A DNA stretch of 64,000 nucleotides from Leucosporidium creatinivorum (taxonomy: Eukaryota > Basidiomycota > Microbotryomycetes > Leucosporidiales > Leucosporidiaceae): positions 453,323 to 517,322 of the forward strand of contig BCKL01000010.1 in assembly GCA_001600635.1 (NCBI GenBank), written 5' to 3'. The notes beneath the pieces were generated by a model. The model was given only the letters and a program-made list of their open reading frames with translations, did no database searches and was not told where the DNA came from. Position 1 is the stretch's first letter. Each line of letters starts with the position of its first letter. Shown one piece after another: positions 24,385 through 57,989 of the stretch. Made by a program: the position numbers and the translations under genes.

Positions 24385-25149
24385 CTAGCCCAAGCTATAT
24401 CTCTGTGCCGTCCGAGTCGTAATGTAGGCGTTGTGGCTCTCCGGGCCACTCCCAGCCACGGCGATCTGGACCTCTCGGCGCTCGGCTTTGGCGAGGGAGT
24501 GGTGATGCGGCGAGGCGTGCTGGAGGGCGAATGAACCGTCAGCAAAGTAGCTTAAACTCTTGATATCATGAAACAAGCACAGGTGAGGTCGGACGACGAG
24601 GATGGACGACGGTCATCAGCCGAAGGAGAGCTTGAGACGACTTGGCAGCTTCACGCGTGGTCTGGATGATATCCAAGGCGCTGAGCCCATCGAAGCCATC
24701 CGGGTCTCGTAAGACCTCGCCGCATGCTGTTTTGAACGCTGGCGAGCCGTTGTGCCCGTGAATTTGGAGGTCTAGGTGGCTGAGAAGCTGCTGCTTCCCG
24801 TGGATCGCCTGCTGTCGGTACTCTGATTCAGCAAGGTGGTGAGCTGGATTATTGGAGAGTTGTCGGCGGGGCAAAGCGGACTGGTCACCGCTTCCTCAAT
24901 CTCTTTTCTGAACAGCTTGATCTCGTCGCGGATCGCCTTGCGAATGCGGAGACGCTCTTCGGACGTCTCCGCTTCTGCTGCCTCCTCGAAAAACCTGTTG
25001 CAGTCGTTACGGATGTGGTGCAGGCTCTCTTGAAGCTCCCGTAGCTCTGCAGGGTCCAAGATATCGTTCGGCGTGAGCCTCTCGGCAATCTCGGTGAGCT
25101 GCTTTTGAGCCGCAGCGGTGGCACCGTCTTCAGGCTGAGCGGGCGGCAT
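24385..25149 (-). CDS. Helical family protein A (unrecognised family)
   Basis: Three exons: 25149-24882, 24822-24581 and 24519-24385, about 215 residues. Domain 1 (residues about 15-90) is helical, with LTEIAERLTPNDILDPAELR and IKLFRKEIEEAV. Domain 2 has YRQQAIHGKQQLLSHLDLQI, KTACGEVLRDPDGFDGLSAL and SSQALLRLMTVV. Exon 3 encodes a tail SLAKAERREVQIAV...SHNAYITTRTAQRY. It matches gene B (26315-27118) along the whole length, including both intron positions, and shares the tail with E and G. To keep frame, intron 1 must use the unusual donor GTCCGC; the better-looking GTGACC five bases upstream breaks the frame. No signal peptide or membrane segment. I recognise no known family; domain 1 recalls a three-helix bundle such as BAG, which is only an impression. 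Confidence 0.7.
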
Positions 25150-25409
25150 AGAGCTGAGAGAAAAGCTGAGAAAGAGACGAAGAGACGAAGGAGTCAGGGA
25201 GCACATTATGATCGGAATTGCGGCACCGCCGAGCACAGCAGGAGTGCCCCTCCTCGGTGTTTGGCTGTCCTGCCTCCTTGGGGCGGAGAAACGAAGGATT
25301 CCCTGCTTTCTGTTTTTACAGATCAGCCTTTCACATCTCAACTACCACTTCCGCCCACCACTCCCTCGTCTAAGCTTTCGCCGAGCTTGACTTGTCGCCG
25401 CGCGCAACG
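25150..25409. promoter_or_regulatory. Divergent promoter between helical genes A and C
   Basis: 260 bp between start codons of A (minus) and C (plus). It corresponds in position to the 275-bp interval between B and D. Near both starts are pyrimidine-rich (in sense direction) stretches; no clear shared box could be picked out by eye. Confidence 0.45.
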
Positions 25410-26025
25410 ATGGCAACGATCACCGAAGAGATTTCCGCGGCCCATCAAGGTCTCCTGGGCATGTTGGGCAAAATGCATGCGCTGAAGCCCGACGTGCAGG
25501 CCACCTCGAAAGCGACGTGGAAAGACTTTGGCAATATGCCCGACCTCAGGCAATGCAGATCAGTCAGCTGGAGCCAGGTCCTAGTAAGGAGGAGCGTGGG
25601 AGCGTGCTCTTGGGGGACTTTGAGTGGTTGAAGCAGAAGATTATGGAGTTCATTCATGGTGAGTCTCGCTCTGCTTGTCGCCGGAGAGTTCCTGCTTACT
25701 AATCTTCTCACCTTATATCACAGCTCGTTATATCGAGGTGCACCAGGAGTACACCAACGCTCGCATTGCCTGCAACCGTCTCATCGACGCCCGGCACGTG
25801 AGCGCCGAGATTAAGGAGGCGGCGAAGGCGGTGGTGCCCGCCTTACCTAGCGAGATCTATCTCACGAACACCTCTATACTGTGGCACACAAAAGATGTTC
25901 AGCGTAAGGGACGGGTGAGTCTGCTGCCCAGCTTGCGCATCCTAGACGTGAACGCCGAGCTGACGGTTTACATGTTGAAGGTCTTGTTGCAAGTCTTGAT
26001 CATGGTGGAGAAGGGTGCGCACTGA
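25410..26025 (+). CDS. Helical family protein C, reading frame apparently broken
   Basis: Start ATG 25410. Domain 1 begins MATITEEISAAHQGLLGMLG and HALKPDVQATSKAT. It then continues in another frame as VERLWQYARPQAMQIS...KEERGSVLLGDFEWLKQKI. The change of frame falls near 25515 and no plausible intron spans it, so this is a pseudogene, a sequencing error or an unspotted splice. After an intron, domain 2 reads RYIEVHQEYTNARIACNRLI, EIKEAAKAVVPALP and DVQRKGR, and the last exon LLQVLIMVEKGAH. The intron after RKG(R/Q) and the ending LLxVLIxxEKG are the same as in D (27394-28203), its closest relative here. The tail found in A, B, E and G is absent. Function unknown. Confidence 0.6.
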
Positions 26026-26314
26026 AATCAGACGTGCTGTTTGGTTACAGAGCTGTCATATCAGCCAAGAGAGCTTCCGCTTGAGCAAGTGCTTGAGCGC
26101 CGAAGCTTTCCCAAGCACTCCTCCCGCATTTGCCTCGTTGCAAAGATTGCCATAAGGCGAGATCACAGCACAGCAATTAGATTCAATTTGCACCTTCGAG
26201 GTTCATACGCGACTCATGCGAACCCGCAAATCCCTTACCTCGCCCCTCGGCGCACCTTCTCCTCGACGATCTCATCGCACCCTAACCTCGCGTTCCACAT
26301 CTCAAGCTGCACCC

Positions 26315-27118
26315 TCAGCACCATTCATATCTCTGAGCTGTCCGACGGGTAACATAGGCGTCGTGGCTCCCCGCATGATTGCCCTCGACGGCAACGAGCA
26401 CATCTCGGCGTTCGGCTTTGGCGAGAGATTGACGGTGCAGGGGGGTTTGCTATGCGGAAGGGAGAGCAAGAAGGTCAGAAAACACAGTCTACAGAACCAG
26501 CCGGCCAAGAGACCGAGAGAGAAGAACACACCCGACTCACCGAGCTCGAACGGCGCCGAGGGCCAGACTTGACGATACAGTCCATGAGGTGTAGGAGGGC
26601 CCGACTCGATTCAGCGGCGAGCATAGTGTGGAGTTTGATATCTCGAGCAGTGAGCTTAGTGTCGAAGCCCGGCGGGTCCTGTAAGACCTCCTTGCAAGCC
26701 TGCTTGAGCGCCGAGGATCCTTTGTGACCGTCAATTTGGGCGTTCAGGGCTTCGAGGAGGGCTCGTTGTCCTCTGAGAGCCGTGTCGCGGTACGCTGCAT
26801 TCCAAAGGGAGTTAGTACAGCTCGTTGGGAACCAAGGAAGTCGAGCTCACCCTTGATAGCTTCGACCACCTCCCTTTTCAGCCTATCGATCTCACGGCCA
26901 ATCTGAGCGTGTTTCCGAGCACGATCGAGCGGGCTCTCCAACGCGGCAGTTGCCATGAGCCTCTCGCCGCAGCTGTTGTGAAAGGCTACCAGCCTCTCCG
27001 TCAAGTCCGCCAGCTCTCTCGGTGGCAGGTCGCCCGGATCGAGCATGTCCCGGATTTGAAGGATGCGGTCGTCAAAGTTTTGTACGCTGTCGGTAGGATT
27101 GACGATGATTTGGCTCAT
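26315..27118 (-). CDS. Helical family protein B (paralogue of A)
   Basis: Three exons: 27118 to about 26853, about 26795 to 26558, and 26449-26315. Domain 1 includes DRILQIRDMLDPGDLPPREL and IDRLKREVVEAIK. Domain 2 has AYRDTALRGQRALLEALNAQ, KQACKEVLQDPPGFDTKLTA and ESSRALLHLMDCIV. The tail encoded by exon 3 has SLAKAERRDVLVAVEG and SHDAYVTRRTAQRY, ending EWC. Colinear with gene A in domains, tail and splice sites; intron 1 here uses a standard donor GTGAGC. B and D are divergently arranged, as are A and C, so the four genes look like a duplicated pair. No signal peptide, no membrane helix, no cysteine pattern. Family and function not recognised. Confidence 0.72.
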
Positions 27119-27393
27119 GGCGAGCGGTTTGAGATGGTGGTGAGAGGGAAAGATAAAGGAAGGAGAGAGCAAGGAGAGGGCCTCGGCGATGCCTCGGACT
27201 TGCATGTGACTCCTCACTGTCAGCTGCACGGAGCGAGAGGCTCTTCTCCTTCTCTGTCTTGGAATCTCTGCACCCTTCTCCTGCACCCTTCTCTTGGCCT
27301 CTGCCACCGGCTCCCACGCCGCCCTCTCGAGTCCACCCCATCGCCGACCTTCCGACCTCACTCTCTCGCCGTCTCGTTGGCTCCCTTGCGACA
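27119..27393. promoter_or_regulatory. Divergent promoter between helical genes B and D
   Basis: 275 bp between the start codons of B (minus) and D (plus). Equivalent in position to the A/C interval. CT-rich toward the D start. Confidence 0.45.
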
Positions 27394-28203
27394 ATGTCTA
27401 CCATGGCCTACTCTACTCGCGACGCCGTGCACGACGACATGGCCTCAATCACCGAACGCCTGCGCGACATCCTCTCCTCGGGCCATGCCTTAACGCCGAA
27501 GGTCGAGAACGAGCTGCACAATGCTGTGGGCAAGCTGTTCAAGGAGGTTGACGCCGAATGGAAGCGATTGGAAGGGCGCGATGATGTGAGGGTGGAGCAG
27601 GAGAAGCGGGAGATGCTGCAGAGGTTGAAGGATATGCAGAGGAGGGTGATGAAGGCGATTGAAGGTGAGGCTCTACTGAAGGACGCGGTACAGGGTTTTT
27701 GGCTGACTCGGACGTCGAGGCAGAGCGTTACAAAGAGTTATGGAAGCAGTACAGCGAAGCTCGACGGGCTTTTCATCTTGTGAGTCGGTGCTGTCCGCCC
27801 TGCCAGTCTCCCTTCGCCGAGCCTCTCCGGCGGGGACCAGCGAGCGCGCAAGGTCCACGAGGATGTGCAGAGCGGCGCTTCCATGCTCTATGGCTTCTTA
27901 CAGAGTCTCCGATGAAAACACTCAATCACCAGCTGACCCCTACGACGACGTTCGCGCTTTGCAGGCCATCGATCGCCGAGCTCTGCCCCACGATATCAAG
28001 AACGCAGCGAAGGCTGTATTCCCTTCACTTCCAGCGGGGAGCGAGATTATCAATACCTTTCTCGCGGCGCTCATTGCCGATACCCAGCGCAAGGGACAAG
28101 TGAGTCCCTTCCTTCGAGTCGGCGCCGAGCTCGAGCTGATCGTCTTGAGCCCGTGTAGGCCATCTTACGCGTGCTGATTATCGCGGAGAAGGGCAAGCAA
28201 TGA
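27394..28203 (+). CDS. Helical family protein D (best preserved short-form member)
   Basis: Four exons: 27394-27664, 27724-27779, 27965-28099 and 28159-28203, giving about 168 residues with a clean frame. Domain 1 is ITERLRDILSSGHALTPKVE...KLFKEVDAEWKRLEGRDD...MLQRLKDMQRRVMKAIE. Domain 2 is RYKELWKQYSEARRAFHL, then AIDRRALPHDIKNAAKAVFP and ADTQRKGQ. The last exon gives AILRVLIIAEKGKQ. The protein is rich in charged heptad-like helices and has no signal peptide or membrane segment, so it is probably cytosolic or nuclear. Closest relative in the window is C. Intron 2 (185 nt) contains the branch-like GCTGACC. A BAG-like helical bundle is conceivable for each domain but unproven. Confidence 0.75.
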
Positions 28204-28449
28204 TTGAACTCACTCGATATACCAGTGAACAGGCGAGGGTGGAGCGAGCTGCGAACGCGAATGCGAGCCTTCGCCGAGCTCCGAACCTCTCGCTCCCTGT
28301 CCTCATCATCTCGCCACCATCTCGCAAACCGAAAACGAAAGAACTCGCTCAATCAATGCAACAAAGTGTCCATCGCACATTCTCCCTCGCACCTTCTCCC
28401 TTTCCCCCCCCTCCCTCCCCGCCCTCCCTCCCTCCCTCGCTCCAGCACT
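28204..28449. other. Convergent intergenic region with pyrimidine tract
   Basis: Between D and the sphingolipid desaturase. At 28387-28445 the plus strand is almost pure C/T (C runs up to nine and CCTCC repeats), immediately downstream of the desaturase stop codon. Confidence 0.6.
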
Positions 28450-30208
28450 CTACTCATCCTTCAACCCCCCCGCGTCCCTCACCGCGTCCCTCCCTCCAAG
28501 CTCGCCTCCCCCACCATTATCAGCGTGCGAGGAACCCGTGCGGGACGGTCGTTTCAGTCGGGACCACATGCCAATGTTGGGATCTGTTTGCGCGCGTTAT
28601 CGTCAGCTCGGCGTGGGCGGCGGAGGCGGAGGGGGGAAAGGAAGGGCAACGTACCAGTGATGAACTTCCAAGTCACCCCCGGCCAACTCTTATGCTGGGG
28701 CAAGGGGTCGTAAAACTCGTGCGCCATCTGGTGCAGAGCGGGCAGCTTGGTCCAGGCGATGGAGGGGAAATCGTGGTGCTCGTTGTGGTAGCCGACCTGT
28801 GCGGTGCGGGTGCGCGGGGGGGAGGGGCAGGGAGGGGCAGGGAGAAAGTTAGTGGAGGGCAGGGAGACGAGGCAGGGGAAGGGGAGGAGAGCGCACGTTG
28901 TAGGCGAGGATGTTGAGCGGACCGTAATAGCTCCACGTCTCTTGGTCATGGCCGTCGAATACTGAAACGGGCCGCCGAGAGGGAGGGGGAGGGCGAGGTC
29001 AGCGCTCGCCGAGCGTCAAACCCCCCTCGGGAAATACTCACGATAATGCTCCGCAATAAAGTGGCCCGCGCAGGGATGCAAACTCCCCGCCATATGACTG
29101 CTCAAAAGCAAGTACAGCATCGAGTGCCATCCCCAGTACTTGACGATGGCGGCGTTGAAGGAGAGTTGGACGATCCAGTTCAAGGCGATCCATCGGGTCG
29201 GCGAGTGTTGGCGCACGAAACCGGGGCGGAGGGCGTAGAAGAAGATTTGGAAGGCGCTGTTGGGGGTTGGTGGAGAAGGGAGAGGGAGAGGGAAGGAGGG
29301 AGTCAGAGAGAGAGAGGGAGGGAGGGAGGAGAAGAGGAAGATGGGGAGACGAACGCGAAGAACGTCTTGCCCAATACGGTCTTGAGTACGAGGAGCTCGA
29401 ATTTGGTCGGCACGTCCGTGTCCATGCCATCCTCGCCGAGGAACTATTGGTGGGTGGGCCGAGGTCAGCTCTCGGCTCGGTCCTCGAGTCGTCGTTTCTC
29501 TGCGGCGACCGAGTAGCAAGAAACACACCTTATGATGCTCGATATGATACTTTTTGAACATCATCGCAAACGGCACACCAATGGGCACATTCGCCGCAAT
29601 CGCAAACAGACGATTCGCCTTTACGCCCCGAAAGGCGAGGTTATGGGTAATCTCGTGCACCGCGAGAAAGGTGTTTTGGTTGGCGGTGCCGCCGATGATG
29701 TAGGCGAGGAAGAAGAAGGTGAGGGAGAAGAAGGGGGTCGACCGCAGGGAGTAGGCGGTGAGGAGTTGGATCAGGGTCACGAGAAGGACGATGTACTTTG
29801 TGAGGGGCTCGTAGCCCATTAATTTGCGGATCTGGTGTTATAGTAGGAGAGCCGCATTAGCCTTCCTTCTGTGCAGGGCCGAGAAGAGCGAAAGAGCGCG
29901 AGGATGGGACGCACCTCGGGGTGAGCCTTGAGGATGGCCTTTCTCCTAGTCCTATGTGGCTCCTCGGTCATCATCCATAAGAAATCATCATGACTCTGCT
30001 CTGGGACGACTTTATTGGGCGCCCACGCTTGTCCCGCTAGTCTCTGCTCCTGCTGCTCGTGTTCATCGTCGGAAGCTGAAGCTGAGGATGAAGAAGCGAG
30101 TGAGGTGGAGTAAGATGGAGGGAGGGTTTCTGCTCCTGCGCTGAGGTCGAATGGGAAGGTTGTAGGGGAGAGAGCGTGGCGGTAAAGTGAGGAGGAGGGA
30201 GCGGTCAT
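28450..30208 (-). CDS. Sphingolipid delta-4 desaturase
   Basis: Introduces the 4,5-trans double bond into dihydroceramide in the ER membrane. Minus strand; starts MTAPSSSLYRHALSP at 30208. The N-terminus has the family signature DDFLWMMTEEPHRTRRKAIL and, after an intron, IRKLMGYEP. Membrane helices follow (YIVLLVTLIQLLTAYSL; SLTFFFLAYIIGG). The three histidine boxes that hold the di-iron centre are visible: HEITH, KKYHIEHHK and GYHNEHHDFPSI. Between them are WIALNWIVQLSFNAAIVKYW and HPCAGHFIAEHY. The last exon, after an intron at FIT|D, encodes DPNIGMWSRLKRP and a Gly/Arg-rich tail ending GGLKDE, stop at 28450. A variable N-terminal extension of about 60 residues precedes the conserved part. 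Confidence 0.95.
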
Positions 30209-30851: not shown

Positions 30852-33800
30852 ATGGTCTTCTACAACCTCAAAGCGCTCATCAAAGCCATCCGAGCGACCA
30901 AGACGATCGCAGATGAGAGAGCTCTAATCGTCAAAGAGAGTGCAGTCATCAGGACTAGCTTCAAGGAGGAAGGTGAGTTGGACGTCGAGTCGAGGTGGTG
31001 TGCGCTTCGGCTGCAACTGGAGGGGGGAGAGCTCGGCGAGGAGGGCTGGGCAAGGGTGGGTGGGAGGAGACGGAAGGCTGCAGTGCAGAGGAAGACAGCA
31101 GACGCTGGATGAGGTGCAGCTGCTAGACAGACCGACGAACCCCCGTCAACACGGCGCGTCAGCACCATCTCGCCAGCTCGGTGAGGTGAGGCGGGCGCTG
31201 GCAGTTGTTGGACAGAGGTGGTTTACCAAAGCTGGAGTGTGGTGAAGCCACACCCGATGCAGAAGCAGCTCGCACCAAGCGGCAGCAGCACCTCGAGCAC
31301 GACGCAAGGGCGCGTGCGGTCTCCCTTTCCCTGAAGGGCGGGCTGTGGCTCCCTGGCTTGTGGGTTTGAAGAGGCTGCGCAAGGTTGCTTGGAACTCGAA
31401 GCCTCTCTCGTGTCGTGGCCTCGTGCTCAGGCAGGCAGCTCCTCGCGACTCCCGCTGGCGCTCCGATTCGCTCTGGCGCTCGTAGAGCACTGGGGCTCGT
31501 CGGCTTTCTGGCGACTTCATACAGCTGTTGGACATTCTGAGGCTTGTGCTGTGTGGGGTCGAAGAGACCGACTGCAGCTGGACTTGGCTGAAGCGGCTGT
31601 CGAGTTCGAGGGTTCGGCGTCCCCTTCCGCTCGTCAAGAGTGGGAAGGGAGCTGATACACACTCTTCGCTGAGCCGCTTGTGGATCTGGAATGTCGTAGT
31701 GTCTTGCCGCTGCGGGGAGCTTCGCGACCTTCTGTTAAGCAGTGCTGGAGCGGTGATCGCCTTTCGTCTGGCCCTTTCGCTCCTCACGGGAGTGAAGGGG
31801 CGGTTGTGGTTAAAGAGCATCCCGCTCCGCTGAATATGACCCGCCGCTGTTCTCGGGGCGCTCAGAGCCCGAGCTCGAAGCCGAGAGCTCGACTCGGGCA
31901 GCGCCGTCTCGGCGCTTGCGGAGCTGCCCATCGCTCACTCAACGAGTGGTTGGTAGCTCTGCTCCAAACGTCGAGGAAGGTGCTATGCTCGAGATACCCA
32001 TTTCCCGCCCGCCCGACTTGACCCTCCACTTGGCCCAGCTCGGCCGTCCGGTTCGAACGAGCGGCGTTGCTCGGCCTTTGCGGACTAGCCGCGCCTCGAA
32101 GTGAGGCGTCGGCGTGTTCGCTGGTCGGCTGAGAGATTGGCCTGTCTTGCTCGAGAAGGCGTGGCTGTGATTTCCGACTCCTGGCTCGCGCCGAGAGCTC
32201 CAACGTTGCCGACGTGAGGCTCCCCTCCTCGCTCATGCTACATCGAGTCGGGAGGCTAGCCTTGACGTTCTCTTCGGCGACGGCACGGGCTCAGTGCGAT
32301 GCCCCCCCCCCTTGGTTCGAAGTTCAGCCGAGTGGAGTGTTCCTGCATGGGCTGCATCCTCCCACACTTGGCCTCTCGCTCCGAACACCCTTCTTCAAAC
32401 CTCCCTCACGTCTAATCGAATCCTCACTAACCACAACTCCCTCCCCTTCCCACTCCTTCGACCAAACAGACTCCTTCACCCGCCACCACAATGTCGCCAA
32501 ACTGCTCTACATCCACATGCTCGGCTATCCGGCGCACTTTGGGCAGATCGAGTGTCTGAAATTGGTCGCTAGTCCGAGGTGAGTTGGGGCGCTTTCGATG
32601 TGATTGACGAGGAGGGAGCAGGGAGGAAGAGAGAAGAGGAAGGCGGGAGGGAGGGGAGAGGAAGCGAGAACGAGGGGGAGGGGGAGAGGAAGAGGCGAAA
32701 GGACGACTGAGGTTCTTTGGTTGGCCTCTTGAGCGGTGCTCGAGGGCTGGCAGAGATACTCCAGGGAGACATCCTCGCCTGCGGCCAGATCCTTGCTGTT
32801 TACGGTCCAGAGCACTCGAGATCTCGTCTGGTCGGACGTCGTCTCGGCGGCGGTCATCGCTGCCCGCCTTGACCCTCCCGAATGATTCGGGAGAGGCTCT
32901 CGGCAAGATTGACAATGCTGAGCGCGTGAAGAAGACAGCACTGACCCCCTCTCCACCCTCCCTCCTCTCCATTCTCCTCTGGCCCCGTCTCGCCTCACCC
33001 TCTCGCGACCCTCGCCCATCACCACAGGTTCACTGACAAGCGCCTAGGATACCTCGGCATCATGCTCCTCCTCGACGAGAATCAGGAGGTCTTGACGCTC
33101 GTCACCAACTCGTTGAAGAAGTGAGTCGCTTATCGCGGACCGTCGCGTCGCCTTCGCCGAGCGAGAGCTGATCTCGCTTTTCGCCCTCTTTCTCTCCTCG
33201 CCCACCCTTCCTTTCTCACGCGCTCACCCGTTCGTTTCGCTGCATTCTTTCCCTGCCCTTCGTTCCTGCGACCCTCGTCGTCAAACAGCGACATGAACCA
33301 CTCGAACGCCTCGACCGTCTCTCTCGCCCTCTGCACCTTCGCCAACATCTCCTCCGAGGAAATGGCTCGCGACCTCGTAACCGAAGTCGAGCGTTGCCTC
33401 GGCTCCGGAAACGCCTATATCCGGAAGAAAGCAGCCCTCGCCGCGTTGAGGTGTCTGTACAAGGTGCCCGAACTAGTTGATCATTTTGAAGGGAGGGCGA
33501 TGGGACTGTTGGGGGATAGGAATCATGGGGTGTTGTTGACGGGGGTTACTTTGGTCACGGAGATGTGTAGGTTGGTTGGGGGGGAGCCGTTCAGGCAGGT
33601 GAGTCGAGCTGAGCGAGGTGAAGAGGGAGCCGTGCTGAGCTGAGCTGAGCTGAACTGAGCGCGATTTTTGAAAGGCCGTTCCGATCCTCGTACGACACCT
33701 CAAGGCGCTCGTTACCACTGGCTATAGCCCCGAGCACGACGTTAGCGGGATTACCGACCCGTTCTTGCAGGTGAGCGTCGCCACTCGACACCATGGACGG

Positions 33801-36096
33801 CGAGCTGGAGCTGACCCGGCGCTTGCGATTACAGGTCAAGATTCTGCGGCTGTTGAGGATGCTTGGAAAGGATGATGCTGAGGCGAGCGAGGCGATGAAC
33901 GATATTCTGGCTCAGGTGAGGGTTAACGGCGCTCAGCGCGATTGGAGGAGCGGAGCTGACCCTCGCTTCTCCTCTTCCCTTTCTCCTACTCGCTCTGTCG
34001 CTCGTCGTCCTCGAACAACAGGTCGCGACCAATACCGAGTCGGCCAAGAACGTCGGCAATTCGATCCTCTATGAGACGGTCCTCACCATCCTCGAGATTG
34101 AGGCCGAGTCGGGACTTCGCGTCATGGCCATCAACATTCTCGGAAAGTTCCTCGGCAACAGGGACAACAACATCCGGTGAGCTTGCCTTCTCGCCAACCC
34201 TCGCCGTCCTGCGCTGAGCAGGTGGAAGCTGACCTCTTCGCCTCCTGCTCCCCAACAGCTACGTCGCCCTCAACACCCTCAACAAGGTCGTCGCCATGGA
34301 CACCAACGCCGTCCAACGCCACCGCTCCATCATCCTCGACTGCCTCCGCGACGGCGACATTTCGATCCGTCGGCGTGCCCTCGAGCTCTCCTACGCCCTC
34401 ATCAACGAGTCCAACGTCCGCGTCCTCACGCGCGAGCTGCTCGCTTTCCTCGAGGTCGCAGATAACGAGTTTAAGCTCGGCATGACTACTCAGGTCTGTG
34501 CTGCTGCTGAGAGGTTCGCGCCGAACCGGAGGTGGCATATCGATACGGTGCTGAGGGTGCTGAAGCTGGTGCGCGGCTCTGTTCGTTCGTCTGTAAGACA
34601 TAGCTGACCCTCGACATCTCACAGGCCGGCAACTTTGTCCGTGAGGAGGTCCTCTCGGGCTTCATCCGCCTCATCGCCCACACGGTCGACCTCCAATCCT
34701 ACACCGTCTTCAAGCTCTACACCTCCCTCCGCGCCGACGTCTCGCAAGAGTCGCTCACCCTCGCTGGAGTATGGGTCATCGGAGAGTTCGGCGACGTCCT
34801 TCTCCAGGGTGGAACGACCGCGGGGGGCGAGGATGAGGAGGCGACGGCTACTACGAGCGACGCTGTGAGCGAGAAGGACGTCCTCGATCTGATGGAGAAC
34901 ATTCTCCTCTCGCCCTACACCAACAACAATATCCGCGGATTCGTCCTCACCGCCCTCACCAAGCTTTCGACGCGCTTCTCGGACCCGACGCAGCTGGCGA
35001 GGATCAGGAAGGCGCTCAAGGGCTTTGAGACGAGCATTGAGTTGGAGTTGCAGCAGAGGAGTATCGAGTTTGGCACGCTGCTCGGTATGGATGGCATCAA
35101 GGGAGGTGTGCTGGAGCGGATGCCGCCGCCGGAAATTAAGGCGACGGTTATGGGCACGGTTAGCGAGAAAAGGCCGGTCGGCTCGTTGAGGCGGGACAAG
35201 GATGTGAGTTCGCTCGAGGGTGCGACAGGCGAGACGAGGCTGACCTTTCTTCTCCCCTTCGCAGGCGCTGCTCGACCTCATGGGCGACGAGGCCAGCTCT
35301 CCTACAACGGCAGCTCCATCGGCCGCCAAGCAGCAGACGACTCAAGATCTTCTCGCCGATATCTTTGGCTCCAACGACGAGATGCCCTCCGCCGCGCCCT
35401 CCGCCCCTGCCCCTTCCGCCACTTCGGCCGTCGACGACATCATGGGCCTCTTCGGCCAAACCTCCCTCTCTCCCCAACCCACCGGCGCTTCCTCCTCCTC
35501 CTACTCGGCACCACCATCCGCCTCGGCCGACCTCTTCTCCTCGCTCACATCCTCTCCCGCCCCCGTCGCTGCTACTCCCCCACCAGCGCCCACCCCAGCA
35601 GCGTCAGCAGCACCACAACAGCTCGAGGCGTACAACAGTAATGGGCTCAAGATTACCCTTACGCCGCAGAGGGATAGCTCCAACAAGCTTGTCGTCAACA
35701 TCTTGGCTCGCTTCACGGCTACTCAGGCGGTGCAGAGCGTCAACTTCCAGGCCGCCGTTCCCAAGGTAGGTTCAACGCTTCGAGCTGTTGACGAGCGAAC
35801 TGAAGCTGATTTCGCCCTTCGCTCTGACCTCCTACAGACTCAAAAGCTGCAGATGCTCGCCATGTCCAAGACGGACGTCTCGCCCGGCGCGACCGAGACT
35901 CAACAGCTTCGCGTCATGGTCGCCGCTCCTGGTGTACGTTCTTCTTGCCTTGTCCTACACGAAGCGCTCGCTGATCTCGTCTCGATAATTCTCGCAGGCT
36001 CTCGTTCGACTACGACTCCGAATCGCCTACTCGCTCAACGGCGCTGCTCAGCAGGACCAGACCGACTTTAGTTTCCCCGCCGGTCTCATGGCTTGA
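30852..36096 (+). CDS. AP-1 complex subunit gamma (gamma-adaptin)
   Basis: Large subunit of the trans-Golgi/endosome clathrin adaptor AP-1. Exon 1 (30852-30972) encodes [20 protein letters not shown] and VIRTSFKEE. After a 1,497-nt intron, exon 2 (from 32470) reads [20 protein letters not shown]. The armadillo-like trunk continues with [71 protein letters not shown] and [18 protein letters not shown] hinge with LLDLMGDE (similar to a clathrin box), Ala/Pro/Ser-rich, leads to the ear: [47 protein letters not shown] and [10 protein letters not shown]. At least nine introns; intron 2 (about 450 nt) and intron 1 are far longer than the rest. Stop TGA 36094-36096. Its partner type, GGA, lies at the right edge. 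Confidence 0.95.
33636..33660 (+). repeat. 5-bp tandem repeat in an intron
   Basis: Unit GCTGA repeated five times (last copy ACTGA) inside an AP-1 gamma intron. The unit equals the core of the branch-point sequence, so the intron offers several tandem branch-point candidates. Confidence 0.9.
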
Positions 36097-44131: not shown

Positions 44132-44132
44132 A

Positions 44133-46569
44133 TCAAGGGAGCTGTCGTGAGCAAGACACGTTAGCCACCAGCGAGCTTCGACACAGCTCCATCAAACTCA
44201 CACTCTTCCTTGCCTCCAACCTCCTCAGCATCCAAGCCTCACTCCCCGGTCCATTGCCCTCCTTCTCAGGCTCTCCTCCTCCCAAGCCACCCAGACTCGC
44301 TCCTCGGTCCAGCCTCGCCAATCCCAACTTGCCCAACTCCCACTCATCTTCCTCATCATCATCCTCGCCAGCAAAGAAGCGAGTCTTCAGAGGTCCTGCA
44401 CTCATGCTCCCGCTCCCTCCTCCAGCGCTGCCACAGCAGCCGAAAGAGAAGGTCGAGTCCGACAGCGAGAGGGCCGAGTCGCCAACGGAGCGAGCGTCTT
44501 GAGGCTTGTAAGAACGCTTGAGGGAAGATCCCATGTCGACGTCACTCGGGGCGAAGGCGCAGGGTGCTGCTGCACGTGCTGATAGAACGCGGCCGTCTCT
44601 TGCTCGGCGAGGTGGGCGAAGTTGGGCGCGATGGGAGGGGAAGGGGCGGGGTAGTGAGCGAGGTGAGAGGTCTGGGAAGGGTCGGAGGTAGGTCGGAAGA
44701 AGCCCTGAGGGATGAAAGCGGGAGGAGGAGGAGGAGGAACGGCGCGGTCGAAGTAGCTCGGAGCTTGCGTGGTGGCCGCCGAGATCGAGGGCTTGAGAGG
44801 CGAGAGGTGCATCGACGAGGCGGGAGAGATCGTGGGCGTCCACTGCATCGCCGAAGCAGCGTTGCCGATCTTGCTGGGCGTGTTGACGAGGGAGGAGAGG
44901 GGAGTGTTGCCCCTTGAAGGCAAGTTGGCGGGGGAGTCGAAGCGGAAGCGGTCGAGAGGACCAGAGGCGCTGTAGGTGGAAGGAGTAGTCGGATATAGTG
45001 ATAGGATTGTATTAAAAAGCTCTGCACTTACGAAGGAGTCGAGAGACCGCTCTCGAGGCCCGAACTGCGCGAGCGACGAAGCGAGCCGACTTGTTCCTTG
45101 AGCTTGCGCTGCTCACGAGTATCGGCTGAGAGTGAGAGAGTGTCAACATACAGTCCAACACTGCTAATACTTGGTGCTCACCGTAGCGAACCCTCAAGGG
45201 AAGGAGAGCGCCGGGAAGCTGCACGCCGTTGAGCCTTGCGATCGCTTCGTCGGCCGTCTCGCGGTCCTCGAGCCTGTTGCGGGCATCGAAGGGTCAGCTT
45301 TGACCCCTTGCGAGGCTGCCAAGGCTCCATTTCCCGTCGACTCACCTCGCAAAACCAATCCCCTTCGACTTGCCTCCATCTCCACGCTCGGCGTTGGGCA
45401 GCGAATCGTTCTCGCGCAGGATGCGGACGGAGAGGACGGTTGCAGGTGCCAGAAGCTGGATGATGTCGTGGTCTTCGAAGTAGGAGGGGATCTACACGCC
45501 AATGGGTGAGCTCAGAGCTGCGGTACAGCAGCGAGACGACGAACGTTGGTGAGGTAGAGGTTGGTCGACGACTCGTCGGCGAGGCGGCGCAGCTTGAGCG
45601 AGACGGATTCCTTTCAAAGGTCGAGCTGTCAGCTTTGTTCTCTCTTTCCGCATAGCCACAGCTCACGCACCTTGGCAAAGCTCGCCTCGAACCCCTCAGC
45701 GTTGAGGCTTGCGACCGCCCTCTCGGCCTCATCAGGCGACTTGAAGAGAATGAAGCCGACGCCCTTGCACGTCTGCGTCTCCACAGGCTGTCCAGTGAAG
45801 GGATCCGCGACCATCGAAGTAGACGTCAATACGCGAACCGAGAGGACTTGGCCATAACGAGAGCCTAGGGCGTGGAGGTCGGAGTCGCGAGCTTCGGGAG
45901 GGAGGAGGCGGACCTGTAGGTGGGCAGAGAGGGTGAGATGTAGGCAGAAAGTTGGGACGAGATCAGAACGCACGTAGATGTTGGTGGCGTGGTCGACGCT
46001 GTGGTTGGGCGAAGCGAAAGATCAGCTCTCGCTCGCGCTGCTGTCAGGCCGAGCTCGGCGTCGAGGGAAACTCACTTCTCCAGCTTGACTTCACGCTGCT
46101 GACGGTATCCAGGCCACGGGGAGATGCTGTGAGAAGCACCTATGCTCGACGACCGAGCCCGTCAGCTTCCTCCTTCCAGCTCATCCGACCTTTCCTCGCT
46201 CGCCGACAACGACTCACCTGCACCGACAGCTCCTGCCCCCAAGTCGAGCTTCATCGGACTCGATCCTTCGCCTCCAGCGTGGCTGTAGTAGTGACTGCCC
46301 AACTGCTGGCGATGCAGGAGGAAACTCGACTGGCCATGCTGCTGCAGGTTTTGAGCGCCGAACGAGAGAGGCGGTTGAGGGAGAGGAAGCGGAAGGGGTG
46401 GAGGGAGGCTGTAGGGGTATTGGTAAGGTACAGAAGGGTGAGCATATGGCGAATGAGCTGTAAGCGAGTACTGCTGAGTCCAATGAGGCAATTGAGGTGA
46501 AAGGGAAGGGAAAAAGTTGGGCGGAGGAGGAGGGACAGGAAGCAAAGGAGCGAGAGGAAGTGGGTTCAT
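44133..46569 (-). CDS. RNA-binding protein with two RRMs, RBMS/MSSP-like
   Basis: About eight exons on the minus strand. The N-terminus is Pro/Tyr/Gln-rich (MNPLPLAPLLPVPPPPPNFF). Short exons lead to RRM1: ATNIYVRLLPPEARDSDLHA, GQVLSVRVLTSTSM, CKGVGFILFKSPDEAERAVA and ASLNAEGFEASFAK. RRM2 follows directly: TNLYLTNVPSYFEDHDIIQL, VLSVRILREN, SKGIGFARLEDRETADEAIA and RLNGVQLPG. The pair, including an RNP1 (KGVGF / KGIGFA) and the short linker, resembles metazoan RBMS/MSSP proteins that bind single-stranded RNA or DNA. After RRM2 comes REQRKLKEQVGSLRRSRSSG and a long disordered tail (DRFRFDSPANLPSRGN; FDRAVPPPPPPAF). The last junctions use a short intron after AFYQH and one after ARKS, ending LP-stop at 44133. 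The tail splicing is tentative. Confidence 0.85.
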
Positions 46570-47127: not shown

Positions 47128-48050
47128 ATGAGCGACCAGCAGATCGTCGATGCGGACGAAAGGGTGTCGAAGCTGCTCGCGAGGGTCAAGGGCGCCCATC
47201 TATCACAGGAGCGGGCTGGGAAAGTCTTGCGAGAGCTTCACGCGCTGAGACAGGAGCTTGACGACGCCATCTCCCTCCCTCAAGGCCAGCGGACCATGAT
47301 AGACGAAACAATGTACCAAGTCGATTTCATGGAGCGGGAACTAAACAGGGTGAGCCCTTCTCGTGTGTTTCGTATACAAAAAGAGCCTTGAATTAATTGA
47401 CCCTTTGCCGTGGTGTCGCAGCTCATTATTGGTAGGCTCTTTCTCGCTCCGGTGCCCATCGCCGAGGTTAAGCTTACCGCCCCGGCTCGATCGCTAACGC
47501 TGCTGCCAACCAGAGACTTGTATTACACTCGAGCAAGAGCATAAAGTCTACGTGGAGGAGATTGACAAGGAGATCGGGGAGGTGCAGAACGTCCCGACCG
47601 AGGTTCGCCGGCTGGCTCGCTCGGTGTTCAATGAGCCCACCAGCTTCCCCAGCCCTTTCTCCAACCGGGAGATCCAATTGTACTCGGACGAAATGCTTGA
47701 CGAGTCAGGAGTACGTTCTCACATGCCTTGCTGCCTCTACCCACGAGCTCGGCGCTGAGCCTTCCCCTTTGCAGCGTCTCGTCGACGTGCTCAAGGCAAT
47801 CGCTTCCCACCGTCCCCTTCGTCGTTCAGCAAGCCCTGTAGCCGTGAGCTTGTGCCTTATCCTGATCGATGAAGCTCTATCTCCGGCTGACTCGTCTGAT
47901 GATCGGCAGACGGACCGCAGAGCCGACTCGGAGCATGCTCGGCGAGAGCGGTCTCTCGCAAAGCTCGGAGTGCATCAAGTATTGGCAAGGCAGGAGGGTA
48001 CGAACTCTCCTGAGGTTTACACTGGTGATAGGAGAGCGATGAGATGGTAG
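47128..48050 (+). CDS. Helical family protein E
   Basis: Five exons: 47128-47349, a 10-nt microexon 47422-47431, 47514-47710, 47775-47843 and 47910-48050. Domain 1: DERVSKLLARVKGAHLSQER, GKVLRELHALRQELDDAI, QVDFMERELNR. The microexon supplies LII plus the first base of a codon. Domain 2: EQEHKVYVEEIDKEIGEV, VRRLARSVFNEP, then after an intron RLVDVLKAIASHR, equivalent to the LLRVLI strand of D. The last exon carries a tail RSLAKLGVHQVLARQEGTNS...VYTGDRRAMRW, a diverged version of the A/B tail. Fully in frame with the splice sites given. No targeting signal or membrane helix. It lies head to tail with gene F. Function unknown. Confidence 0.68.
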
Positions 48051-48209
48051 ACAAGTGTCTTGCATTGTCCTACAGCCCGCGTTTCCTTGGACCCCTCGGC
48101 GTTCGCTGTTCGTTGCTTTAGCCCCGCCTTCCTCTTCTTCTTCCTCCTGCAACCTCGTACTGAGGTTTTCAAGACCCTTCCGCTCACACACATCTCGCCA
48201 CACATCGCG

Positions 48210-48938
48210 ATGTCGCTCGTGTACTATCGCAAGCTCTGGGATGCCCTCCAACTTCTCAGCGCCGAGCACGACCTTTCGGCAGAGATGCACGGGGAGCTGG
48301 AGGCCGAAGGAAGGGAGCTGAGGCGGGAAACTGGAGTAGTGTCATCACTGAGCGGCTCGGTAGCTGTTCGGCCTCGTCAAGCTTTCATGCGCAAGTTGAA
48401 AGTGTTTCATGACCGAGTTGAGCAGGTGCGTTCGGCGATATCGAGGCCTGCAGCGGCGCCAAAGTCTTTCGCTGACATATCCGCTCATAGACAAATCTCC
48501 GTAAGCTGTTCACCTGGCACTGCCCCAGGCTTCAGAGACAGCACCGACATCTCTCCGCGACTTAAAAGCTCGCCGAGCGGACCGCCGAAAGATGACACGG
48601 CTGACCACACCTCATTTTCTCTCGCAGATCGTCGAAAGGAGGTCTTTGCTCAATACGGAGAAAATGCGCGAGCACTCATCGCGCTCATCGACCGCCACGA
48701 AGGCAGGCTAGCACCTGAAGTCCTCGCCGAGGCGCGCCAGGTGCTTATGCTGTCGATGACAAACCTCAACCAGCTCAGCACGGCATGCATCGCCACTCAT
48801 ATTGAGTACCGACAGAAGAAGGGGCAAGTAAGTCAAACGAGCGAGCTGGTGCAGAGCGCCTCGCCCAAGCTGACCTCGTGCCCTGGTCTCGCTTCGCAGA
48901 GTCTGCTTCGTATTCTCCTCGCGGCGGGGCGTGCTTGA
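48210..48938 (+). CDS. Helical family protein F
   Basis: Four exons: 48210-48425, a 10-nt microexon 48491-48500, 48628-48827 and 48900-48938. Domain 1: LVYYRKLWDALQLLSAEHDL, SAEMHGELEAEGRELRRET, RQAFMRKLKVFHDRVEQ. The microexon encodes TNL plus one base, at the same place and of the same length as in E. Domain 2: RRKEVFAQYGENARALIALI, RHEGRLAPEVLAEARQVLML, EYRQKKGQ, then the final exon SLLRILLAAGRA. As in C and D the protein ends shortly after this strand and has no SLAK tail. Without the microexon model the region also reads open through both introns, so cDNA is needed to decide; the match to E favours splicing. Function unknown. Confidence 0.66.
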   Translation: MSLVYYRKLWDALQLLSAEHDLSAEMHGELEAEGRELRRETGVVSSLSGSVAVRPRQAFMRKLKVFHDRVEQVRSAISRPAAAPKSFADISAHRQISVSCSPGTAPGFRDSTDISPRLKSSPSGPPKDDTADHTSFSLADRRKEVFAQYGENARALIALIDRHEGRLAPEVLAEARQVLMLSMTNLNQLSTACIATHIEYRQKKGQVSQTSELVQSASPKLTSCPGLASQSLLRILLAAGRA

Positions 48939-49082
48939 GTAGTGTGCTCGGCGACGAATGTTAGAGGTCGCTTGGTGTCCAACACCTGCATCTCTGCGAG
49001 CTCCAAGCTCGGTGCTCGCCTCGAAGTCGCCCATTTCCTCGGCGCGCAATAGACTGCTTGTTCCCGACCTCAGCTATCAACC

Positions 49083-50528
49083 CTAATACTCCTCGATCTC
49101 CTTCAGCTTGAAGATACCCTCCATCGCCTCCAGCACCTCTGGAATCTTCTCGACCTCGCCCATCGCCCTCATCCGCCCAAGCAGGTTCTGCATGAACCGC
49201 ATCCCCTCGACCGCCTGATCCGTAGCCACCCTGGTCAACTTTGTGCGAAAAGCTGTTGTAGATGTGGCGGGCGTGAAATGGAAATCGGCGGCGGGGAAGG
49301 GAGCCTCGCCGTGGCAGCGCACGACGAGCCGGTCGGTGCCGAAGCGTCGGAGGGAGTGAAGTAGCGTGTAAGAGCCTGGTGGCTGATGTGGGGCGTGGAA
49401 GTCCAGCAGCCGCAGATGCTCCCATCTTTCGAGGATCCTGGACACCTCTTCCATGTTCTCGGCCATGGAGAACTGAGTGGGGCGGATGGTGATGTGCTGA
49501 ATTGGGGAGGTCGCGAAGGAGGGGAGGATGGCGGGAAGGGAGTTGCCCGTTGAGGTGAGGGACAGATGGGCGAGGTGTGGGAAGGTTGTCGAGGTGGTGG
49601 GCGCCTCGGTCACCGCTGAGTCGATGCGGAGCGAGAGGGATTCGAGGGAAGGTGCGAAGGACGAGATGAAAGCCCAGTCTCGTTCCTCGAGACGGCCCAT
49701 ATCGAGTGTGAGTGACCGCAAAGTGGTAGTCGACACCCATTGGTGGTCTTAAACGACGTCGTCGAGGTTTCCAGCCGCGCGAGCGGGTCCTCCGTAGGTC
49801 GGCCGAAGGGCCAGATGGTGCAGCTGCATCTTGGAGAGAATCTCGACACCGGAGTCGTTGAGGAAGCCGGCCTCTCCTTCGATCTCGACTCTCCTGAGCG
49901 CCGGAAGACGGCTCAAGATGTTGATAGCTCGGTAATCTTGCGCCGCGCTGAGCGTGATGGATGTGATCCGTCCCGAGACGAGTCCAAGGGCATCTCTGAA
50001 GTCCGCTTCAAGAAGGCTTCGTTGAATCTGGGCGAGCGCGATGTCCGTGAAGTCGAGAGCCGTAACGTTACAGAGGAAGGGAAGGAGGGAGAGGGCGTGG
50101 ATGTTCTCGGCGGGATCGTGCGAGTCAAATGCGAGGTTTCTGAAGCTAGCGCCGTGGCGGGGAAGAACCCTAAACTTGAGCGTGAGATGTCCGGTGCGAG
50201 ATGACCTCAAATACTGTTTAACGGTAGCAGCGAGATCGAGGGCGTGAGCCACGGTCCCCCAGGGAGCCGCCGAAGTGACGGAGCGCTCAAAGCTCACCCT
50301 GAAGACGTAAATGCCGCAGAGCTTGTTCATGCTGCGATCCACCCGAGAGAGTGATGGGGTGTCCGGGGAGCGGGGCGTGTTGCTCATTTGGATGCGCCAA
50401 TCTCGAGGTTCGGCTCCTCGTAAGTCTCCCTCAGACACCATCTCAGCGATCCGAGCTTTGATATCCAGAGGTAGCGCGCTGAAGCCCGTGCTCGGAGGTG
50501 CAGCAACGGCAGCATCCTGGTCGTCCAT
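49083..50528 (-). pseudogene. F-box/LRR-like gene interrupted by an in-frame stop
   Basis: Starts MDDQDAAVAAPPSTGFSALP at 50528. The segment LPLDIKARIAEMVSEGD resembles an F-box start, followed by SLSRVDRSMNKLCGIYVFRV. LRR-like units follow: CNVTALDFTDIALAQI, RITSITLSAAQDYRAINI, LPALRRVEIEGEAGFLNDSG, LHHLALRPTYGG. A TAA at 49751-49749 ends this frame after 259 codons. The same frame then continues open for another 221 codons with matching LRR-like content (TLRSLTLDMGRLEERDWAFI; SLESLSLRIDS; HLRLLDFHAPHQP), ending KLKEIEEY. So either the gene carries a nonsense change, or a weak 72-nt intron (donor GTCGTT, acceptor CTCGAG) removes the stop. It lies convergent to helical gene F, 145 bp away. 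Confidence 0.6.
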
Positions 50529-50785
50529 CGAGAGCGTCGACGAGTGTTGAGTGAGTCGAGAGTCTGAAAGCGCGGGGAGATGGGTCAGCTCGGCTTACAG
50601 AACTATACTCACAGCTAGACGTACAGTCAACAGCTTCCCGGCGAACCAGCGAGCAGTCGAAGCGTAGACGAGGTGAGCGCGGGAGAGAAAGGGAGGGGGG
50701 ACCTTCTCGCGGCCAAGTGCAAGTAGTCGTCCAAAGGGGGCTCTTGCTCCGACCTCATCGCTCGATTCGCTGTCGACCTACAGCG

Positions 50786-52314: not shown

Positions 52315-52632
52315 TATCGATGAACGGACGATTGGCTTTGTACGATGCTGCTACATGGACGATCTGAATCGCCGAGGACGAGCTCGGTCGTGAGGTTGAG
52401 GCGAAGTGAGCGGGCTTTTCCTCGACGTCTTCGAAGTATGTACTATCATTCACTCTGAACATACATCTCGACAGAGTGCTGACCTGCTTCTGTAACAGAG
52501 CTCTTCTTTCTCTGTTTCTTGCCCCGCCTCGGTCCTTCCAGCGCCTTGACCCCCGACGGACGTTGTTGAGTGACAACATCTCTGCGCTCTTTCGCTTCCT
52601 CCCATTCACACATTCTCGCTACAAGAAGCTGC
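52315..52632. other. Intergenic region
   Basis: 3' flank of the SDR-like gene and leader of the M50B-like gene. CT-rich toward 52600. No feature recognised. Confidence 0.4.
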
Positions 52633-55049: not shown

Positions 55050-55420
55050 ACACATAGACGGACATCTTTATGACAAGTAACAAACATCATGCACCACTTC
55101 ACAGCCTCGCCCGAACATCACCGCTCGACGTTCACTTCGCTTCTCGTTCGGAACCGACCAATCGCAAACTCGAGCTCCTTCCCGCTCCAGACGAATACGA
55201 TAGGTGATCTCAGTAAGGAACGAATCACAAGACGTTGCCATCACGCGAGCGAAGTGAAGCCCGGCGCTCGGCGCGCGCTTCTTCGCACCGAATCAGGCTT
55301 CTTTTTGAATCTCGCGCGAACAGATGGCTCGTGGACAGCTTTCAGGGCGCTTTAATGTCTTCCCTCAGAGCTCACTGCGTTCCTCAGCTCTACACCTAGT
55401 ACGCCTAGCAAGGCAGGGCT
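55050..55420. other. Convergent intergenic region
   Basis: 3' flanks of the M50B-like gene and the F-box gene. No gene, repeat or RNA recognised. Confidence 0.5.
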
Positions 55421-56585
55421 CTACGAGTTGTAAAACGAGCCTCTGCATCTAAAGTTGAGTTTTAAGACCGGATCCTTTTCCCTCAGCTTTCTGGCAGCAA
55501 AGTCTATTCCATCTCGGTGACCATCAATCCACCAGTCCTCCAGCACGATGGTCTGCACCCGCCGTCGCGCGAGAATCGTGTCCAGCACGCCGTTCTCATG
55601 ATGCTCGAAGTCAGCCCACAGGCGCTCCTGCGCTGGGGATGCCCATCGCTGCTCCGACCACCTCTTCTGTTTGGGCGCCCAGGGGGTAAAATTGAGCCAG
55701 AGGTCGAGGCAGGGGAGCTCGGCTCGGTCGAAGGAAGTGGGGAGAGGCGACGGCGAAAGCTTGTAGTCGAAGACGAAGGACGTTCCGAAGCGGTTGAGGT
55801 GGGTGCCAATGGTGAGGACGTGCTGGACGAGTGAGAGGGGGATGCCACTCCCCATGCCGTTACCGAGAGTAAGGGCGACTAGTTGCGGCGCCATCGCGAC
55901 GACGAAACGAGCGATTGCTGCGTATCCAGCCTCGGTGTGCAGCGTGGTTTCTGTATAGAAGTCGACGCCAAGCCTCCTGAGGCTGGGGAAGGCTTCGCTG
56001 AACGTAGCGAGGTGTTGGGGGAGGGTGACCTCTCGGAGAGTGAGGGTTCGGAGGGAAGCAAATGTCGCCGAGAATATGGAGAAGTCGACGCAGATGACGT
56101 GCAGCGTGCGTAGCGAGGACTTGGCTGTGAAGTGGAGAGTTAGCAAACTTCCACGAAGGTTATATGTCGCTCCTCACCGACGACGGCATCCCAAGCGTTC
56201 GGCCACTGGCCATCCTTCCCGCGCATCTCCAGGACCTCCAAGTTGGAGCATCGACTGAGCACGTAGTAGTAGGTCCGTTTCCTCCAGGGTAAGGTTTCTC
56301 CGATGGGGTTCCAGCCCAACTCGAAGGACTTGACGAGCAGCGCCCAATCGGGGTGTAGGTCGAGCGTCCGCATGAACTTGTTGGCCCGCTTTCTGTGGTC
56401 GATGCAGACCGCGGCGTAGACATAGTTGCGCAAGACCTCCCTCCATACGTGGCTAACGAGCGCGAGCCGGCGCAAGAACCTGTTCGCCTCCCGGGCCGAA
56501 GATTGTGGGGGACTGTGAGCTCGGCGATGGCAAGCTCAATGATATGACGGAGTAGCTCCACTGGTAGGTGCTCTGCTGGATCCAT
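55421..56585 (-). pseudogene. F-box protein with apparent frameshift in the F-box
   Basis: Starts MDPAEHLPVELLRHIIELAI at 56585, a clear F-box beginning, and runs to AELTVP. The frame is then lost at a C5 run (plus-strand G run 56507-56511). One extra C would continue in the other frame as SSAREANRFLRRLALVSHVW and REVLRNYVYAAVCIDHRKR, the expected second half of the F-box. The rest is intact: NKFMRTLDLHPDWALLVKSF, YYVLSRCSNLEVLEMRGK, an intron at 56120-56175, then LRR-like SLRTLTLREVTLPQHLATFS, PSLRRLGVDFYTETTL and AMAPQLVALTLGNGM, ending FRCRGSFYNS. No intron fits the change. It is either a real frameshift or a homopolymer sequencing error. The start lies 425 bp from helical gene G. Confidence 0.65.
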
Positions 56586-57010
56586 GTCGAGCCGATTCGA
56601 GCGAGCGAAAGATGTGGGAGGAAAGAGAGAGACGCAAAATCGAGAGAAGCGGACCCAGCTCGTGCTTTCGAAGGGGCTCGGGCGTTGAGCAGCTGCGCGA
56701 GAGGAGGTGTTTGAGGCTGTAGACGAGTAACGTTGAGAAAGAGCAAGCGATGTACGAGCTTCCTCTGTGGATGAGGCTGAAAAGAGGGGAACCAGGAAGC
56801 AGCGACGAGGAAGCGAGAGAAGGTAGCTCGGCGCTCGGCGCTGGCTCTCGGTCGTCGGGACAGGATTCGCTTCGAGCTGACGAGTGGAGATGTTCCGAGA
56901 AGATGCAAAGCACCGGATGCACATCTCTTTTCCCTCCACAGCTCCTCGACCCGCCCATAGTGAGCCAGCCCGCGACCCCTCCCTTCCCTTCTCCCCTTCC
57001 TCCCACCGCC
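56586..57010. promoter_or_regulatory. Region between F-box gene and helical gene G
   Basis: Upstream region of the minus-strand F-box gene and 3' flank of gene G. Contains GCTCGGCGCTCGGCGCT near 56826, another cluster of the recurrent TCGGCG core. Confidence 0.45.
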
Positions 57011-57989
57011 TTATCCCCTCACTCCATACCGCCTCGCCTGCAGACTAGTCACATAAGCGACATGTCCACCTTCTCCTCGCTGCCCGCTAGTAAGTAGCAC
57101 CTCCCGTCTGTCACCTTTAGCAAGCGACGAAGCGTGGCCGGTGCGGGCGCGCTCCAAGCCGAACGGATCCTCGGCGTCCTGCAAAGTGAAGTCAGCAGTC
57201 TATAGCTGTATAAGCTGGAAACGGACATACCCAGGAATGTTTCTCGTGCTCCTGCTCTGCCTGTGGGCGTCAAATCGATCCGGATGAGCCTGCTATCGCG
57301 AAGAGGTCCTGCTCGGCGATGATTCAACTCACGTGCGCCGCTTCCAGGCGCTGCTCGAGACCCTGCAGCGAGTAGCCTTTGGTCAGCTACTCTCTGTCAA
57401 GCGCCAATCGAAACTAGGATTCACCTTCACAGCCTGCCGCCTCTCCTCCAAGCGCAAACGAAGCTTCTCCAGGCTCGGCTCCTTCCTTACTCGGTCGGCG
57501 TGTGCGTTGACCTTGGCAAGCTCAGCAGCCTTGACTTCTGGGGTGACGCTCGGAAAAATCAAAAGCAACTGGACGGCTCGGTGGTGCAGGGCTTCCCACT
57601 CGACTACTGTGAGGCGGGCGACGGAGCGGATCAGCTTCGGCGCCGAGCTGCGAGGACGGCGAGGCGACGAAAATCTTACGGATCTTAACGTGCTACAATT
57701 GCCGAGCAAGAGAGACATCAGCTTGGGTGTTCTCCCAGCTCATCCCTCTCCGAAACCGCCAGCTCACCTCCCTCAACTCCGTCTCCACTTCCTTCAATCC
57801 CCTCACCACAGCAATGTCCCTCCTCGCGCATGCCAGCGTCGTGCGATACTCCGTGTCCAGCCACTCATGCGTTCGAAGCAGCACTGCTTCCAACCCTGCG
57901 TGATCGCCGATGAGAGCGGGGTTCGTAGCCCATAGTTGACGGAAGGATGCGAGCCGAGCAAGAGCGGCTTCGTGAGAGAAGGGCGCCAT
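57011..57989 (-). CDS. Helical family protein G (with tail and microexons)
   Basis: Minus strand, start 57989 (MAPFSHEAALARLASFRQLW). Domain 1: HAGLEAVLLRTHEWLDTEY and RDIAVVRGLKEVETELRE. A 13-nt microexon (57692-57680) supplies HVKI and one base. Domain 2: EWEALHHRAVQLLLIFPSV, TPEVKAAELAKVNAHADRVR, LEKLRLRLEERRQAVK, then LTKGYSLQGLEQRLEAAH, a 30-nt exon (57260-57231) AEQEHEKHSW, and the last exon DAEDPFGLERARTGHASSLA...KGDRREVLLTS...HVAYVTSLQARRYGVRG, stop at 57011. The tail SLAK.DRREV...H.AY.T..A.RY matches A and B at protein level without close DNA similarity. All junctions used keep one frame. An alternative end near 57049 is possible but loses the tail. Function unknown. Confidence 0.66.

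Follow-up and report, generated by a model that had tools for sequence, protein, structure and literature searches.

Seven predicted paralogous genes of two subtypes, one with a conserved tail exon, in a 64-kb window of Leucosporidium creatinivorum

Introduction

Do seven small genes lying in three clusters within one stretch of basidiomycete DNA belong to a single family, and what kind of protein do they encode? The stretch, called the window here, comprises 64,000 nucleotides of Leucosporidium creatinivorum (assembly GCA_001600635.1, contig BCKL01000010.1, positions 453,323 to 517,322 of the forward strand), and the evidence on the family was drawn wholly from it. The window is intron-rich and carries eukaryotic genes, with a G+C content of 56 to 65 percent per 2 kb. 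An initial annotation had proposed that the seven genes, A to G, encode helical proteins of a single two-domain architecture. Unnamed families are common in fungi.

The comparisons below indicated that a family of seven paralogues with two subtypes is very probably real. Type 1 comprises A, B, G, and probably E, with proteins of 204 to 218 residues in which a helical region is followed by a C-terminal tail of about 37 residues encoded by its own exon. Type 2 comprises C, D, and F, with proteins of about 154 to 168 residues that consist of the helical region and lack the tail. The genes are laid out as the pairs A/C, B/D, and E/F, with G solitary.

Results

Gene models

The placement of seven intron-containing genes by the initial annotation was borne out by spliced models with GT...AG introns (Table 1). 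The models of A, B, D, E, F, and G were complete, with GT donors, AG acceptors, and correct phase; among them, the first intron of A required a weak, non-consensus donor (GTCCGC). In gene C, the last acceptor was poor (GAAG), and the ATG frame of exon 1 (25410-25658) met a stop, the remainder of the exon being open in another frame. Gene F (48210-48938) was also open across its predicted introns, and its unspliced transcript would be translatable too.

A conserved tail exon in type 1

The gene spans also enclosed a conserved last exon, SLAKxxRR...HxAYVTxxxAxRY, in A, B, and G, and perhaps in E. A tblastx self-comparison of the window joined G to A and B through these last exons. When the window was searched with family profiles as 1,703 translated segments of at least 20 residues, in which self-matches occur by construction, a tail profile built from A and B alone retrieved G at an expectation (E) value of 2.6e-9, with the best reversed control at 0.18. 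Pairwise, the tails of A and B scored z 22.9 and those of A-G and B-G z 14.2, and 0 of 2,000 shuffles reached these scores. For E, the score was reached by 5 of 2,000 shuffles against B, 95 of 2,000 against A, and 178 of 2,000 against G. The tail profiles found no tail near C, D, or F, and these three genes end before it. The best extra tail-profile match (55058-55204, plus strand, E 0.12) is probably noise.

The helical regions

The proteins were cut at the junction between the two proposed domains, and 42 pairwise comparisons (21 per region) were made with 500 shuffles each. In the second region, six of the 21 pairs exceeded all shuffles: A-B (z 31.2), C-D (27.2), D-F (15.4), B-E (8.8), B-C (8.4), and C-F (7.1). 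Leave-one-out profiles of this region recovered A (E 6.6e-12), B (3.5e-16), C (6.6e-14), D (2.9e-14), and F (2.3e-7), with the best reversed control at 1.9. The second domain claimed for all seven proteins was thus clear in five of them (A, B, C, D, F), was seen in E by its pairwise match to B, and was not recovered in G. In the first region, the single pair A-B exceeded all 500 shuffles.

Profiles of A to F were also run against the 1,703 segments. Segments of the family genes headed the list of the second-region profile, followed by a real match at E 0.36 against 1.3 for the top reversed control; for the first-region profile, the corresponding values were 0.73 and 1.8. Among these segments, family profiles found no convincing eighth member. 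Profiles from small subsets listed an antisense frame of D at E 0.0087 and otherwise matches at chance level, one reversed control equalling the best extra match (0.58 each). Neither a profile comparison (P 0.23) nor 49 cross pairs (highest z 3.3) supported an origin of the two regions by internal duplication, and the idea that the second region of G was copied from the first region of its relatives found no support either (z up to 1.6).

Whole-gene comparison and introns

Full-length profiles were compared with each other in ten combinations, C being entered with its X, and ten reversed controls gave P 0.12 to 0.72. Type 2 was held together by CD-F (P 6.2e-8, positions 24-163), and the two subtypes were joined by ABE-CDF (1.8e-4), AB-CDF (0.002), and AB-CD (0.0023); the alignments of CD-F and AB-CD reached into the N-terminal region. 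G matched AB (P 6.2e-7) and ABE (1.5e-5) in alignments restricted to the tail, and AB-E (3.6e-5) gave an alignment extending into the tail.

Intron sites, which had been said to agree across the seven genes, concurred in place and phase in the predicted models; the splice sites were picked with the family in mind, so these models depend in part on the hypothesis. The junction intron was in phase 1 in 7 of 7 models (in A through the weak donor, and in C as read from the sequence). It preceded a conserved isoleucine by 16 residues in E and by 20 in the five genes A, B, C, D, and F, G being without this anchor. Five genes (C, D, E, F, G) had a phase-0 intron just ahead of the last helix, and four (A, B, E, G) had one ahead of the tail. 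An extra phase-0 intron in E, F, and G yielded microexons of 10, 10, and 13 nucleotides, respectively, and D alone had a further intron, after 327 nucleotides. G is joined to the other members by these intron places and phases, and to A and B by the conserved last exon; the shared introns make the strongest case for counting the whole of gene G as a member.

History of the pairs

A is nearest to B, and C to D. This pattern suggests joint duplication of the two genes of a pair, and A/C and B/D look like the products of one old tandem duplication. Synonymous and nonsynonymous divergence (dS/dN), estimated roughly from 34 to 44 codons in each case, was 0.86/0.26 for the A-B tail, 1.16/0.41 for the A-B second region, and 1.57/0.47 for C-D, with dN/dS of 0.30-0.35 for A/B. 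For the tails of A-G and B-G, dS was saturated and dN was 0.47 and 0.45, the protein being kept. To judge from these sequence comparisons, A/C and B/D look to be under purifying selection.

Database and structure searches

The family is unnamed within the Pfam, NCBIfam, and PDB searches. No Pfam or NCBIfam family scored above its curated cut-off, the criterion applied, in agreement with the earlier statement that no named family was recognised. In the first Pfam scan the proteins were approximate joins that lacked their tails, C being represented by its second region, and A, B, and G were rescanned in final form; the NCBIfam scan covered six of the seven proteins, without C. The best matches below cut-off were Pecanex_C on E (E 0.002), Dynactin_p22 on D (0.0023), and TIGR02652 on D (0.0017). 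Profile searches of PDB sequences matched designed tetratricopeptide-repeat proteins (E 0.00088 and 0.00097) and a leucine-rich-repeat protein, also designed (0.0097), over stretches of about 31 residues, and these were set aside as generic helical matches; the best such match of the first region, RAD50 (E 0.063), was unconvincing. Single-protein scans, which reach close relatives only, found none in viral contigs (query B) or prokaryote genomes (query D). Among the entries listed, a literature search found no description of this family, which does not prove that none exists.

Structures were predicted from six sequences each, B and five window relatives for the second region and D and five for the first. 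Both models were three-helix arrangements, with a predicted local distance difference test score (pLDDT) of 77.0 and a predicted template modelling score (pTM) of 0.41 for the second region and values of 72.6 and 0.51 for the first. The best PDB fold matches had E values of 1.4 for the second region (50 of 50 listed) and 1.1 for the first (best 50 of 124); the best neighbours among the matches listed were segments of syntaxin, Pex19, and talin and de novo bundles, and no match was significant. A BAG domain likewise has three helices in about 80-90 residues, and a BAG-like bundle had been suggested; the suggestion found no backing, with no BAG model among Pfam matches up to E 1 for the proteins scanned and none of the listed fold matches (50 of 50, and the best 50 of 124) being a BAG structure. 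In 7 of 7 proteins, the proposed domain boundary falls within 49-83 residues devoid of proline, a hint that a single helix may run across it.

Evidence against a uniform family

Several of the results weigh against a single family of seven adaptor-like proteins. Leave-one-out profiles of the first region recovered none of the seven members (E 0.074 to 170); with one of 21 pairs beyond the shuffles, the N-terminal helical domain described as common to all seven was not upheld. In G, the second-domain motif was not recovered (leave-one-out E 100), and neither helical region showed significant similarity by pairwise or leave-one-out comparison. The second region of E gave a weak leave-one-out value (E 0.3) but z 8.8 in the pairwise comparison with B, and tail profiles from A+B and A+B+G did not list E at E values up to 5. 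Three of the ten profile-profile comparisons were not significant (AB-F, P 0.051; CDF-G, 0.33; CDF-E, 0.47). The orientation of the pairs varies, A/C and B/D being divergent and E/F co-directional. Gene C may be a pseudogene; alternatively, its frame break may reflect an error in the sequence or an imperfect model. The helical moment over the junction ranged from 0.15 to 0.56 and was not above the strand-like moment in A and F. The structure models are of modest confidence, with six sequences and low pTM, which leaves the fold, the continuous helix, and any dimer as predicted features. The uniform two-domain architecture proposed for all seven accordingly gave way to two subtypes, with G fitting through its tail and introns only.

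Discussion

Taken as a whole, the best explanation is a two-subtype paralogous family combined with a helical-adaptor scheme, and its chances of being right in full are about even. Each protein would be an elongated, all-helical adaptor in which two three-helix units are joined by one long helix, like tandem spectrin-like repeats. The products of neighbouring type 1 and type 2 genes would bind each other by way of their helical regions. The tail of type 1, the better conserved part, would dock on a partner that is itself conserved, with the helical part diverging meanwhile. This adaptor/heterodimer scheme is the most likely mechanism and still a tentative one. The comparison with spectrin-like repeats is functional and concerns the predicted units of three helices and the lack of proline over the join; there is no sequence match, and plectin spectrin repeats appear at E 3.9 among the fold matches listed. 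In spectrin-like repeats a continuous helix links successive units, and the units of the present family are shorter than a spectrin repeat.

Possibly, the seven genes instead encode ordinary helical housekeeping or structural proteins (e.g., cytoskeletal or membrane-trafficking adaptors) that were duplicated locally, the pairing of subtypes being accidental. Generic three-helix models with no significant structural neighbour among the matches listed, the varying pair orientation, and the signs of purifying selection are consistent with this possibility, whereas a conserved tail that has its own exon and is absent from one subtype suggests a more specific role.

It is unlikely that the genes form a self/non-self recognition or regulated-cell-death set, that is, fast-diverging linked pairs restrained by their partners and possibly acting through F-box-like neighbours. 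Tandem duplication, strongly diverged helical regions, paired subtypes, and an F-box-looking gene beside each of the three clusters would suit such a set, but of these neighbours the first alone clears the F-box cut-off, the third scores below it, and the second is without a match; moreover, no Pfam family, fungal death domains included, scored above cut-off in the seven proteins, and the paralogue comparisons indicate purifying selection. One report describes lineage-specific genes of Neurospora as clustering with HET-domain genes (PMC10684091), which is a parallel only. Like lineage-specific fungal families, the present one combines tandem duplicates with no library match and no assigned function; it differs from them in its linked subtype pairs and separate tail exon.

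An improbable reading is that only subsets are homologous, type 2 with A, B, and E making one family and G being an unrelated helical gene that gained its tail exon by shuffling. G does resemble A and B in the tail only; however, it has a junction intron of E/F-like place and phase, a microexon, and a phase-0 intron before the last helix, and these argue against tail shuffling, since shuffling would not carry such introns. Very improbable is a scheme in which each type 1/type 2 pair encodes matched, linked helical proteins that bind one another for recognition, the type 1 tail passing the complex to a conserved effector, e.g., an SCF ubiquitin ligase with the F-box-like neighbours, so that mismatches of pairs between strains would be detected.

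If the two-subtype family is confirmed by expression and orthologues, an unnamed family gains a definition usable in searches of fungal genomes, namely, two subtypes, a diagnostic tail, and diagnostic introns. The tail offers an immediate handle toward a binding partner.

Table 1. Positions in the window of the family genes, their tail exons, and other features
Feature	Position	Strand	Details
Gene A, type 1	24385-25149	-	Exons 24882-25149, 24581-24822, 24385-24519; 214 residues; SLAK tail is last exon
Gene B, type 1	26315-27118	-	Exons 26851-27118, 26541-26794, 26315-26449; 218 residues; SLAK tail is last exon
Gene C, type 2	25410-26025	+	Exons 25410-25658 (frame break), 25724-25914, 25981-26025
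Gene D, type 2	27394-28203	+	Exons 27394-27664, 27724-27779, 27965-28099, 28159-28203; 168 residues
Gene E, type 1 (probable), weak tail	47128-48050	+	Exons 47128-47349, 47422-47431 (10-nucleotide microexon), 47514-47710, 47775-47843, 47910-48050; 212 residues
Gene F, type 2	48210-48938	+	Exons 48210-48425, 48491-48500 (10-nucleotide microexon), 48628-48827, 48900-48938; 154 residues
Gene G, type 1 by tail	57011-57989	-	Exons 57768-57989, 57680-57692 (13-nucleotide microexon), 57425-57606, 57333-57362, 57011-57178; 204 residues; stop codon 57011
SLAK tail exon of A	24388-24519	-	Tail comparison
SLAK tail exon of B	26318-26449	-	Tail comparison
SLAK tail exon of G	57014-57178	-	A+B profile, E 2.6e-9
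Possible SLAK tail exon of E	47910-48050	+	Weak pairwise scores; AB-E profile alignment crosses tail
F-box-like gene next to cluster 1, non-member	22901-23901	-	Pfam F-box-like E 1.4e-6, 28.4 bits, cut-off 24.3, hand-spliced; unspliced frame 16.5 bits
F-box/LRR-looking gene (by eye only) beside E/F	49086-50594	-	No Pfam match up to E 1 in one scan; LRR_14 E 0.0025, 17.1 bits, cut-off 40, in another
Possible F-box gene next to G (upper end set by eye)	55424-56586	-	F-box-like E 0.0011, 19.1 bits, below cut-off 24.3, hand-spliced
L38e	1106-1324		Pfam, ordinary neighbour
Cys/Met pyridoxal phosphate (PLP) enzyme	13740-15538		Pfam, ordinary neighbour
ABC transporter	18632-20291		Pfam, ordinary neighbour
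Adaptin	33125-36068		Pfam, ordinary neighbour
RRM protein	45632-46021		Pfam, ordinary neighbour
L18	58516-59856		Pfam, ordinary neighbour
VHS domain	62533-62913		Pfam, ordinary neighbour

Neighbouring genes and window composition

F-box-like genes (PF12937) adjoin the clusters, but none of the seven family proteins has an F-box match. F-box models matched none of the 37 other open frames scanned in the window; F-box genes may be common in the genome, and their adjacency to the clusters could be chance. Downstream of the F-box-like gene next to cluster 1, an open frame of 401 residues (21330-22532, minus strand) has a high coding score and no Pfam match up to E 0.01, and it is perhaps a continuation of that gene. 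The remainder of the window was scanned with Pfam as chosen open frames, which gave the ordinary neighbours in Table 1 and a fatty acid desaturase match at 29019-29837 that scores under the cut-off.

Several short words were in excess across the whole window. Counted on both strands, the heptamer CTCGGCG/CGCCGAG occurred 139 times against 25.6 expected under a second-order Markov model and appeared by eye to be spread over introns, exons, and intergenic DNA, and CGCCGAGC occurred 71 times against 8.4 expected, also on both strands. The word AGCTGACC, seen 29 times against 3.7 expected, is perhaps an intron branch-point signal.

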